Shown: positions 31,373 through 35,114, counted from the stretch's first letter. The stretch: 64,000 bases of DNA from Polyangium spumosum (GCF_009649845.1 NZ_WJIE01000002.1:186001-250000), one strand, 5' to 3'. Numbers and translations: made by a program. The notes: generated by a model from the sequence alone, not told the origin.

Positions 31373-31389
31373 GGTGCCGGTCAAATTTG
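31365..31389. repeat. Left target duplication and terminal inverted repeat
   Basis: CCCCCGCA (31365-31372) then the 17-bp terminal repeat. Its inner part is the perfect palindrome GGTCAAATTTGACC (31379-31392), a possible transposase or repressor site. Confidence 0.88.
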
Positions 31390-31545
31390 ACCGACCCCCG
31401 GTTCGTCTAGGCAAACCTTCCCGCTCCCTTCCGTGACCTCCCCTACCGCCTCACGGGTCGGTCTAGTAATGTCCGTTGCAGGAGCAGATTCCGCTCCTCG
31501 TCTTCCGCGATCCCATGTAGGGTCCTTGCCTGAACAGATGAAAGG

Positions 31546-31577
31546 GCTCTGCCGGCCGATAGCGCGACCGGCAGAGC
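31546..31577. terminator. Hairpin upstream of the IS1-like transposase
   Basis: GCTCTGCCGG-N12-CCGGCAGAGC, a perfect 10-bp stem between the left end and the transposase start. It could block impinging transcription from outside the element or fold in the leader. No T-run follows. Confidence 0.45.
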
Positions 31578-31663
31578 TTGCGGAACGCCGGACGGGAGAC
31601 CCGTAGCAGCGCACGACGCGCGCGGAGCATGGGTCGGCCGATCGGGGAAGGCAAGGTCTGCCC

Positions 31664-32752
31664 ATGGGAAACGTGCTCGCCTGGGAGCGGCGGGTCGCGG
31701 TCGTGTGTCATCTAGTCGAAGGGGCGAGCGTCAATGCAACGGCGCGGATGACCGGCGTGTCGAAGCCGACGATCCTCTCCCTCCTTCTACAGAGCGGCGA
31801 GGGATGCGACCGCATTCACGATCGGCGCGTTCACTCCCTATGCATTAGGGAGGTAGAGCTAGACGAGCTTTGGAGCTTCATTCAGAAGAAGCAGCGGCGC
31901 GTCGGGCCTGCCGATCCCCCGCATTGGGGAGACGCGTACGCCTTCCTGGCAATGGCGAGGACGCAGAAGCTCCTGATCGCCTACCGTGTCGGGAAGCGGG
32001 ACGAGCAGAACACGCGGGCGTTCGTCGCCGATCTCCGGTCACGTCTCGCGGTCGTGCCTGCGATCACCTCGGATGGCTTCACGGCCTACCCTACCGCGGT
32101 CGGGGAGAGCTTCGCGATCGATGGGCAGGCCGGCGCGGCGGTCGACTACGTCGTGCTCCTAAAGGAGTTCAATGGGCGCAGGTTCAAGGATGACTCGGTG
32201 CGTTATGAACCGCCGCGCGACCCGGTCATGCATAAGCGCGGCGTGTTCGGGGCTCCTGACATCGACAGGGCCTCAACATCGCACATTGAACGCGCGAACC
32301 TCACGGTTCGTATGCATATCCGGCGCTTCACGCGCCTATGCAATGGGTACAGCAAGAGCCTCCCGCATCACAAGGCGGCTGTCTCGCTGCACGTCGCCTT
32401 TTACAACTTCTGCCGGGTACACGAGACGCTCCGGGTCACCCCGGCCATGGAGGCAGGTCTCACCGATCACGTCTGGACGGTCGACGAGCTGCTCCGTGAG
32501 GCCCTAGGCGCGCCGGTACAGGAGAAGCCGAAGGTGCGGCCCTTGCGCCTCCCCGAGACCGGCACGGCGAAGGAGCTGCCCGGGGGCCGCGGATGGCTCC
32601 GCGCCGTCCCGAGCACGGGCAAGGCAGGGGCGAGCGCGGGCGCGCCTACGCCGCCCCGGCCTCCGGAGGCGCCTGCTGTGAGGGCGGCCCCGGCTCCGAA
32701 GCGCCGATGGGTTCAGATGGATCTGTTCGGGTGGAAGCCGCCGGAGAAGTGA
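31664..32752 (+). CDS. IS1-like DDE transposase
   Basis: 362 residues. An N-terminal HTH (NATARMTGVSKPTILSLL) is followed by a DDE catalytic core: Asp67 in VELDELWSFI, Asp137 in TSDGFTAYP and Glu209 in HIERANLTVRMHIRRF. The motifs KEFNGRRFKDD and FYNFCRVHETLRVTPAME are typical of IS1-family transposases. It is longer than classical InsAB because of a Pro/Ala-rich tail ending in KRRWVQMDLFGWKPPEK. Single ORF, no frameshift, apparently intact. It converges on the cargo operon. Confidence 0.92.
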   Translation: MGNVLAWERRVAVVCHLVEGASVNATARMTGVSKPTILSLLLQSGEGCDRIHDRRVHSLCIREVELDELWSFIQKKQRRVGPADPPHWGDAYAFLAMARTQKLLIAYRVGKRDEQNTRAFVADLRSRLAVVPAITSDGFTAYPTAVGESFAIDGQAGAAVDYVVLLKEFNGRRFKDDSVRYEPPRDPVMHKRGVFGAPDIDRASTSHIERANLTVRMHIRRFTRLCNGYSKSLPHHKAAVSLHVAFYNFCRVHETLRVTPAMEAGLTDHVWTVDELLREALGAPVQEKPKVRPLRLPETGTAKELPGGRGWLRAVPSTGKAGASAGAPTPPRPPEAPAVRAAPAPKRRWVQMDLFGWKPPEK

Positions 32753-32814
32753 CGCGCTGAGAGCGTCCTTCCGTCCGAATCTTGTGAATGAGAATCAACT
32801 CTGCCGCAAACGCT

Positions 32815-33624: not shown

Positions 33625-33773
33625 AGTGTGCTGCGAGGATCCGGCGCTCCTTGTCCGCGGTCAAGATTGTTGCGAGGAGCGGCCTTCCCGGGCCTCTACG
33701 ACCGCGGTAGGCTCTCAGGATGTCTCGGGTAGGGATCGGGGCGGGACGGGCGCAGGAAGCGCCGCGGGAGGGC

Positions 33774-34358
33774 CTAGCGACCGCGCTTGCGTTGCTTCCA
33801 ACCGGGGCGAGGCGCCTGCTTTGGAGCCGGCTCTGCGCCGAGCGTCCGAAGGAGACGGCGGAGCTCCTGGACGTGCCGGTGATGCGTGGACGGGTTGCGC
33901 CCGCTCTCCTTCGCGGCCTCAACGACCGTGAAGCCGAGCAAGGCGAGGAGCAGGGCGTTCGCGGCCTTCGGTCGCATACGAGCGACGGCGCGGAGCAGAT
34001 CCCGCGCTTCGGCCGCCTCGCGCGGGTCAATGCTACCGACGAGTTTGTCAACGTCGCCGGTGTATTCGTACCGGTTCCGGTGTCGCCTGCGATAGTTCGA
34101 TGCCCGGAACCATGTGACCGCACGGAGGAAGACCTCCAAGGTCTTCTCGGGCGGGACGCGAGCGGAACCGCGGATCTTGCAGTCGCGGGCCGACTCATAC
34201 GCCGCGATCATGACGTCCTGCACGATGTCCTCGGCATCGCCAATGCGTACACCGTACCGGAGCGCGGCCTCGCGGATGAATGCACGGCGTGCGTTGATCT
34301 CCTCGGCCGACACGTCGACATAGGGATCCCCGCCGTCCGGGTGAGGCCGGTACATCAT
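33774..34358 (-). CDS. ECF-like sigma factor carried on the transposon
   Basis: 194 residues, normal ECF length. Region 2: INARRAFIREAALRYGVRIGDAEDIVQDVMIAAYES, then FLRAVTWFRASNYRRRHRNRY. Region 4: RDLLRAVARMRPKAANALLLALLGFTVVEAAKESGRNPSTHHRHVQELRRLL. The C-terminus is basic. The ATG at 34358 overlaps the stop of the HTH1 gene (ATGA) and follows GGGAGGCC, so translation is coupled. It is a relative in context, not a close copy, of the sigma at 16633 and lacks that protein's membrane tail. Likely to direct RNA polymerase to a small set of promoters, perhaps that of the Ntn-hydrolase gene. Confidence 0.82.
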   Translation of the reverse strand: MMYRPHPDGGDPYVDVSAEEINARRAFIREAALRYGVRIGDAEDIVQDVMIAAYESARDCKIRGSARVPPEKTLEVFLRAVTWFRASNYRRRHRNRYEYTGDVDKLVGSIDPREAAEARDLLRAVARMRPKAANALLLALLGFTVVEAAKESGRNPSTHHRHVQELRRLLRTLGAEPAPKQAPRPGWKQRKRGR

Positions 34359-34609
34359 GACGGCCTCCCGATCAAAGCGTCCAGGTCAATGCGAGTGACG
34401 CGGGCGACCTGCGCGGCAAAGTGAACCGAGGCGCGGATCTCGCCCGCGATGACCGCTTGCATGTACCGGCGCGAGTATCCGAGGGCTCGCGCGGCAAGGC
34501 GGACGCTCGTCCCCCGGGCAAAGCGCTCCAATCGGGCACGGACGCGGGCGTTCTGCTCGTCGGAGAGCACGGCCGGAACGCTCGGCGGGTCAATGTCGGG
34601 GAGGCTCAT
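34355..34609 (-). CDS. Small HTH protein (HTH1 type) on the transposon
   Basis: 84 residues. The ATG at 34609 overlaps the stop of the upstream HTH2 gene and is preceded by GGAGGCC; the in-frame start at 34630 is less well supported. The sequence PPSVPAVLSDEQNARVRARLERFARGTSVRLAARALGYSRRYMQAVIAGEIRASVHFAAQVARVTRIDLDALI aligns end to end with the 18461 protein. It has an XRE/Cro-like helix-turn-helix in the middle. Four-base overlaps on both sides show an operon of HTH2, HTH1 and sigma. Probably controls the operon or the sigma factor. Confidence 0.8.
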   Translation of the reverse strand: MSLPDIDPPSVPAVLSDEQNARVRARLERFARGTSVRLAARALGYSRRYMQAVIAGEIRASVHFAAQVARVTRIDLDALIGRPS

Positions 34610-34947
34610 GACGGCCTCCGGGCGCCGCAATGCGGGCAGACGTCAGCCGCGCCGAGCGGGGCGAGCAAGGCGTCCACGGTCCGGCCCGCTGCACGGGCGG
34701 CACGGATCACGATGCCGGGGGACACGTTATCGCGGCCGATCGCGACGTCCTTGACCGTGCCGCGTGCGACGCCCATGACCGCGGCGAGGACATCCCATCC
34801 CCCGTATGCGGCGCGGAGGTTCCGGAGGGCGGCGCGGACGCGCGCCCGTTCGTCAGGGGATAGGAGGGGGATGCGCGGTCGGTATCGCTTTTTGCATGGA
34901 CCGCGGCTTTCTTGCCCTGCGGGCGCAGGACGAACGAGAGTAAGCAT
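34606..34947 (-). CDS. HTH protein with CPxC tail (HTH2 type) on the transposon
   Basis: 113 residues, first gene of the cargo operon. The N-terminus is basic (GPCKKRYRPRIP). A helical core (DERARVRAALRNLRAAYGGWDVLAAVMGVARGTVKDVAIGRDNVSPGIVIRAARAAGRTVDALLAPL) contains the HTH, and the tail is VCPHCGARRPS with a zinc-knuckle-like CPxC. The same order of motifs occurs in the C-terminal half of the 17760 protein. The 159 bases between its ATG and the transposon's right end must hold the promoter; GGTACGA/TCGTACC and CGGCCCC/GGGGCCG pairs there could be operators. Confidence 0.75.
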   Translation of the reverse strand: MLTLVRPAPAGQESRGPCKKRYRPRIPLLSPDERARVRAALRNLRAAYGGWDVLAAVMGVARGTVKDVAIGRDNVSPGIVIRAARAAGRTVDALLAPLGAADVCPHCGARRPS

Positions 34948-35089
34948 GGGTACGACCTCGGGTCTCGGGGCTGTGCCTAGCGGCCCCGTAGGCGTTCGTA
35001 CCGTCTGCGGGGCCGCGCTGTTTGCCCGGACCCTACGCTCCCGTCCTTCCCCCTGCTACGTCAGAATCTCAAACTTGACCGCTTCGGGG

Positions 35090-35114
35090 CAAACTTGACC
35101 GGCACCCCCCCGCA
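35090..35114. repeat. Right terminal inverted repeat and target duplication
   Basis: The terminal repeat (35090-35106) is followed by CCCCCGCA (35107-35114), identical to the left flank. A second copy of CAAACTTGACCG lies just inside (35070-35081), which may be a subterminal transposase site. Confidence 0.88.

Follow-up and report, generated by a model that had tools for sequence, protein, structure and literature searches.

A probable passenger-carrying IS1-like transposon with a sigma-factor operon and an exchangeable cargo slot in Polyangium spumosum

Elements of the insertion sequence (IS) family IS1 are normally short, about 0.7-1.2 kb, and consist of the transposase alone. In a 64,000-nucleotide stretch of Polyangium spumosum DNA (GCF_009649845.1 NZ_WJIE01000002.1:186001-250000; hereafter the window), positions 31373-35106 contain an IS1-like transposase gene together with genes for a sigma factor, two helix-turn-helix (HTH) proteins and a 269-aa protein. 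The question is whether all of this is one mobile element, and which of its genes belong to it permanently. We read the region, called T01 here, as an IS1-like transposon that is complete and carries passenger genes (a 'transporter IS', tIS), and on the sequence evidence we put the probability of this at roughly 0.8.

T01 is 3,734 bp long and both of its boundaries are base-exact. Its terminal inverted repeats, GGTGCCGGTCAAATTTGACC on the transposase side (31373-31392, plus strand) and GGTGCCGGTCAAGTTTGCCC on the regulator side (35087-35106, minus strand), are complementary at 18/20 nt (90%). The identical 8-bp target-site duplication (TSD) CCCCCGCA abuts both ends (31365-31372 and 35107-35114, plus strand), and its left copy is half of the palindrome CCCCCGCATGCGGGGG. 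Inspection of the surrounding DNA indicated what the site looked like before insertion: the unoccupied, paralogous sites are near-identical palindromes of the TTTCCGCCACnnCGACCCCCCCGCATGCGGGGGTGGCGGAAA type, and in the occupied copy the palindrome is split by T01 and CCCCCGCA is doubled. The target palindrome has 12 copies in the window, of which 11 are uninterrupted with a single CCCCCGCA (at most 3 mismatches; expected 0.00), one at 30606-30636 (plus strand) and the others at 21400, 22541, 26725, 27601, 36330, 37160, 37757, 39852, 40908 and 43493. A chance origin of the structure was rejected on this count, and a composite structure was ruled out, as T01 has a single transposase within one pair of ends and not two IS copies. 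The original prediction, made from the window sequence, had placed a passenger-carrying IS1-like element at these positions, base-exact at its ends, flanked by a perfect 8-bp duplication and encoding an intact DDE transposase. Each of these structural features was found in its place, and only the match between the inverted ends, given there as 16/17, had to be corrected.

The transposase gene (31664-32752, plus strand) is a single intact open reading frame (ORF) of 362 codons, and its product matches DDE_Tnp_IS1 (PF03400) above the Pfam cut-off (E 7.2e-9; 36.5 bits, cut-off 24.1). The cut-off of the NCBIfam model transpos_IS1 was missed (65.9 vs 100 bits), and the match starts at model position 50, the N-terminal part being absent. 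Residues D67, D137 and E209 are invariant across the 17 copies found in this genome. All 17 transposases also have a conserved C-terminal Q-x-x-L-x-x-W tail, which is QMDLFGW at the end of the C-terminal extension of T01 (within 32700-32749) and which presumably recalls beta-sliding-clamp-binding peptides. In the Pfam scan up to E 1, PF03400 and weak HTH models were the only matches, and an IS1595-type (ISXO2-like) DDE domain was not found. Thus, T01 is similar to the IS1 family in its transposase domain, its GGTNNTG inverted ends and its 8-bp TSD (the family has GGT..TG ends and TSDs of 8-9 bp), but its single-ORF transposase lacks the N-terminal segment and has the C-terminal extension, and the Polyangium elements, at 2.7-5.8 kb, hold resident regulators and cargo. 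We named it IS1-like tIS because the IS1 domain is present but the size, the single frame and the missing N-terminal part do not fit a classical IS1.

The genome (10.76 Mb, 61 contigs) contains 17 homologous transposases, 44-100% identical, each of them enclosed by GGTNNTG-type ends and an exact 8-bp TSD. The elements so defined are 2.7-5.1 kb long, and every one carries extra genes. Three layouts were recognized. In layout A, found in 13 delimited elements, the transposase is followed by a slot and then by the genes for the sigma factor, HTH-B, in some cases HTH-X, and HTH-A, reading inward; T01 has this layout without HTH-X. In layout B, the transposase and slot are followed by genes for an 83-aa protein and a single HTH protein, again reading inward, and in layout C, the HTH protein, the 83-aa protein, the slot and the transposase all have the same direction. 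The 17-bp ends of T01 recur once in the genome, around the 95%-identical transposase of its sister T02 (TSD CTACGACG). Compared with T02, the T01 sigma factor is 97% identical and HTH-A only 44%; HTH-A of T02 is 91% identical to that of T06. Similarly, the sigma factors of T03 and T09 are 81% identical and their transposases about 50%. These identities indicate that modules have moved independently between elements. A hairpin in the transposase leader (31546-31577, plus strand) is altered in both arms between T01 and T02. One candidate, T13 as a single element of 6.7 kb, was dropped, since it proved to be two neighbouring elements, T12 (3,363 bp) and T13 (3,201 bp), whose TSDs are identical. 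On a 31-kb contig of Polyangium sp. 15x6 (L094), three such transposases were seen, and the ends there belong to at least three motif lineages of the kind described below.

The ends themselves follow a simple geometry. Bases 6-12 of the end form a 7-bp motif, M, which is lineage-specific, with 13 variants among 23 Polyangium elements. At the transposase-side end an inverted M is located at bases 15-21 in 18/23 elements (at most 1 mismatch), and at the regulator-side end a direct copy is located at bases 26-32 in 20/23, whereas swapped controls gave 0/23 and 1/23. M is CGGTCAA in T01 and has four copies: the outer copy of the transposase-side end (31378-31384, plus strand), the inverted copy forming a dyad with it (31387-31393, minus strand), the inner direct copy at bases 26-32 of the regulator-side end (35075-35081, minus strand), and 35095-35101. 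The rule was of practical use, as it led to the two ends of T17, flanked by matching copies of the TSD CGTGCGCT, after a scan for inverted repeats and TSDs had missed them. In layout C, the dyad remains at the transposase-side end despite the inverted gene. Quite probably, the transposase recognizes this motif. With M arranged as an inverted dyad on the transposase side but as two direct copies spaced 20 bp apart on the regulator side, the enzyme would be able to tell the two ends apart.

The insertion sites have their own regularity. The T01 site is an interspersed palindrome within tandem repeat territory with a 132-134-bp period. This territory extends over about 24 kb of the window (19287-43523) as tandem and interspersed repeats, with 12 palindromes in which CCCCCGCATGCGGGGG lies inside TTTCCGCCAC...GTGGCGGAAA; the long ORFs listed there look spurious. 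Of the 15 sites reconstructed in this genome, 14 are in tandem arrays, whose period is in most cases 21 bp or roughly a multiple of it. Arrays of this kind make up 1.8% of 400 kb sampled at regular intervals from the genome, and the binomial probability of 14/15 is approximately 6e-24. Arrays of 21 or 42/43 bp also surround 5/8 of the other Polyangium elements and 6/6 elements of P. fumosum and Sorangium, and V01 and V02 have a palindromic repeat in common. Three elements lie in one array (L032, G000:C15:118-128 kb), two in another (L037, C3:359-366 kb) and two in a third (L041, C9:51-58 kb), and some elements in these arrays have identical TSDs (CTACGACG, CGCCCACG).

These sites may reflect survival in place of choice: insertions elsewhere would have been lost by selection and the arrays would have grown after insertion. 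Arrays lie between genes and an insertion into them does no harm, so the array result could partly reflect the survival of harmless insertions, and this counts against targeting, as does the finding that relatives from other phyla, with shorter transposases, are in arrays in only 1/41 cases. However, the proportion of sites in arrays is far above the coverage given, and it stays improbable (~4e-11) even when 15% of neutral sites, an assumed figure, are taken to be arrays. Moreover, when the flanks are joined the array continues across the junction, and one array can hold several independent elements, either three (T15/T02/T07) or two (T06/T11; T12/T13). We therefore regard an explanation without target preference as unlikely, and prefer the reading in which arrays are targets. 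As to how they would be chosen, we give an even chance to the proposal that insertion is steered into intergenic repeats, sparing host genes, by either the C-terminal tail or the bendable repeat DNA.

From the end opposite the transposase, a regulator operon reads inward on the minus strand. It encodes HTH-A (34606-34947; 113 aa, with a C-terminal CPHC pair), which is exchanged between sister elements, and the resident HTH-B (34355-34609; 84 aa from its ATG) and extracytoplasmic function (ECF)-like sigma factor (33774-34358; 194 aa), the latter being the resident gene of architecture A. Two ATGA overlaps link the three genes, and the 269-aa gene follows 149 bp further on. The family profile of the sigma factor matches CnrH (E 8e-9) and SigL/SigE across regions 2-4, whereas the single sequence scores below the cut-off (32.9 vs 42.9, NCBIfam). 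When 116 genomes of the order were searched, the sigma subfamily was restricted to four genomes of one genus, where 16/16 matches adjoin a transposase, and none of the 116 was found to have the sigma/HTH operon at an ordinary chromosomal site. The operon recurs at the same position and in the same orientation in the 13 delimited layout A elements, which come from these four genomes. Judged by this distribution, the HTH-HTH-sigma operon is a resident, element-borne module of T01, and the cargo set of the original prediction did not turn up at loci away from a transposon.

Approximately 40 nt before the operon start, a leader hairpin (34980-35016, minus strand) is conserved in all three layouts, and 8/10 of its pairs have compensatory changes. 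Its covariation amounts to 26 two-sided change cells versus a shuffle mean of 6.9; none of 500 shuffles was as high, and at most 7 were obtained when the structure was slid. The Rfam scan of the element and the leader hairpin gave nothing at the gathering threshold. We tentatively suggest, at slightly under even odds, that the HTH proteins and the sigma factor would time the expression of the transposase, the cargo or both, and that the structured leaders would add post-transcriptional control. Several observations weigh against this suggestion. The regulator leader is also present in elements without a sigma factor, and is therefore probably not the sigma factor's own promoter; alignment of the leaders revealed no sigma-specific promoter, as the conserved blocks all occur in sigma-less elements too; and the leader, being palindromic, could act in DNA as an operator and not as RNA.

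The operon could instead be an anti-transposition or addiction module, with antitoxin-like HTH proteins and a toxin in the slot, rather than a device for transcriptional timing. Both HTH proteins do have weak antitoxin or HTH_3 matches (HigA E 0.0026), and the cargo of relatives is rich in toxin-antitoxin (TA) and defence genes. By contrast, profile comparison identifies the third gene as encoding a sigma factor, and PADLOC gave no match to the 269-aa protein in the T01 slot. An addiction module is thus improbable, and somewhat more so than the lack of target preference discussed above.

The slot lies between the convergent transposase and regulator units, and its content varies from copy to copy. 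When T01 and T02 were aligned, element positions 1-1381 matched at 90% and 2308-3734 at 85%, with nothing between; the 926-bp slot of T01 (32754-33679), the block not common to the sister, corresponds to 679 bp of unrelated genes in T02. The 269-aa gene in it (32815-33624, minus strand) is therefore cargo. It is absent from T02 and from every other sigma-bearing element, and appears to be an orphan, as relatives of its product were found neither in the order nor among 284 Myxococcota genomes, plasmids, phages and viral contigs. The protein start, MTIVICGVVPDGVVLGADSR, resembles Ntn hydrolases (TIV...DGVVLGADSR motif), and a possible Ntn hydrolase is the most that can be said, since the Ntn/proteasome matches are sub-threshold (Pfam E 0.087, NCBIfam E 0.14), which leaves the label 'proteasome-like' unproven. 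A single-sequence structure prediction (predicted local distance difference test, pLDDT, 36) was set aside as unusable.

These results bear on the original prediction, which saw an IS1-like element with a self-contained regulatory circuit of four genes, possibly controlling transposition or host genes, and on the version of it in which the IS picked up this circuit and the Ntn-like protein acts as a protease on the regulators. The four genes are indeed co-directional, the ends of three overlap, and the sigma factor and both HTH proteins are element-borne. However, the fourth gene, separated from the sigma gene and replaced in T02, is exchangeable cargo lying outside the operon, and its orphan status and sub-threshold Ntn assignment make such a circuit very unlikely. 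Still less credible is a chance capture of host genes, in which operon and cargo merely ended up between the ends and the extra length has no function: an isolated odd ORF is found in many tIS-like elements, for instance of the IS1202 and IS6 families, but the recurrence of the operon at a fixed position and orientation, its covarying leader and a sigma subfamily never found away from a transposase argue against it.

In other elements of the genus, the T12 slot contains a PDC-S42 phage-defence candidate (E 4e-95), the U04 slot a PDC-S13 candidate (E 5e-62), the T14 and T08 slots PDC-M14B-like proteins, and the U05 slot a P63C-domain protein. Two segments of about 130 bp at the slot edges are shared by elements whose cargo differs, but occur at no other place in the genome, and would permit cargo exchange by homologous recombination. 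We give even odds to the proposal that cargo is swapped in this way and retained because it benefits the host, for instance through phage defence or addiction. Two further coincidences of content were observed. T04 (L035) and T09 (L039), otherwise divergent, both have after the transposase an 85-86-aa protein with a QLVLPGME motif (72% identical), and U01 (L084) and W02 (L093), from two Polyangium genomes, have the same set of slot genes at unrelated sites, including an extra XRE-type HTH protein that was also seen in T05 and T10.

We then compared T01 with known cargo carriers. TSDs are 8 bp in the IS1595 family and 5 bp in Tn7. T01 is similar to the tIS of the IS1595 family in its TSD and in having passenger genes within IS ends, but has the IS1 domain instead of the IS1595-type one, and cargo is present in every delimited member of its clade, exchanged between conserved resident modules. 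According to passages in the literature, passenger-carrying IS are known chiefly from the IS1595 family (PMC9330008, PMC7986276 and PMC3129680, citing Siguier, Gagnevin and Chandler 2009). With Tn7-like cargo transposons (PMC8649781), T01 and its relatives share diverse defence cargo, asymmetric ends and several transposase-binding sites, the latter predicted in T01 from the motif copies; in contrast, T01 has one transposase gene, no TnsABC/TniQ-type proteins, a much smaller size and an 8-bp TSD.

The clade extends well beyond Polyangium. Related transposases were examined at the best 80 genome loci, from Acidobacteria, Deltaproteobacteria, Alphaproteobacteria, Chloroflexi, Verrucomicrobia and other groups. 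Requiring ends matching at 13/18 or more and an exact TSD, with a direct-orientation control that never exceeded 12, we delimited 51/80 as elements of 2.0-7.0 kb. None of the 51 was transposase-only, nor was any of the 17 of this genome, so the premise of the original prediction, that IS1-family elements normally carry the transposase alone, fails in this clade. The 144 element ORFs match 196 PADLOC models, versus 39 for 144 length-matched flanking ORFs, mostly from one YhcG-like protein; 38 Pfam families are found in the element ORFs (HTH, M78/IrrE, P63C, NYN, SocA, HigB, PIN, AAA and others) and 130, mostly housekeeping, in the flanking ones. These figures count models, not proteins, and the enrichment is therefore qualitative; in that sense, the cargo of the relatives appears rich in TA and defence genes. 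Copies on plasmids are annotated merely as 'IS1 family transposase', one of them beside a RES/Xre pair. In the open-access literature, with the ISfinder catalogue and most subscription papers outside the search, no description of a cargo-carrying IS1-like clade was found. The clade is thus apparently widespread and seemingly undescribed, and always carries passengers, often for phage defence or TA systems. It may, in a provisional view that falls a little short of an even chance, consist of obligate cargo transposons moving single defence or TA genes across phyla, with a Polyangiales branch that has a plug-in architecture in which ends, regulators, sigma factor and cargo can be interchanged, along with a readable 7-bp end code and targeting to 21/42-bp arrays.

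Phages, plasmids and Tn7-like elements are known vehicles of defence and TA genes. A further carrier, small, common, apparently uncatalogued and labelled merely 'IS1 family transposase', would account for many 'orphan' defence genes, and searching between these ends would be a route to new ones. With a sigma factor of its own and lineage-specific end motifs that can be read by eye, such an element would make end recognition, target choice and self-control directly testable.

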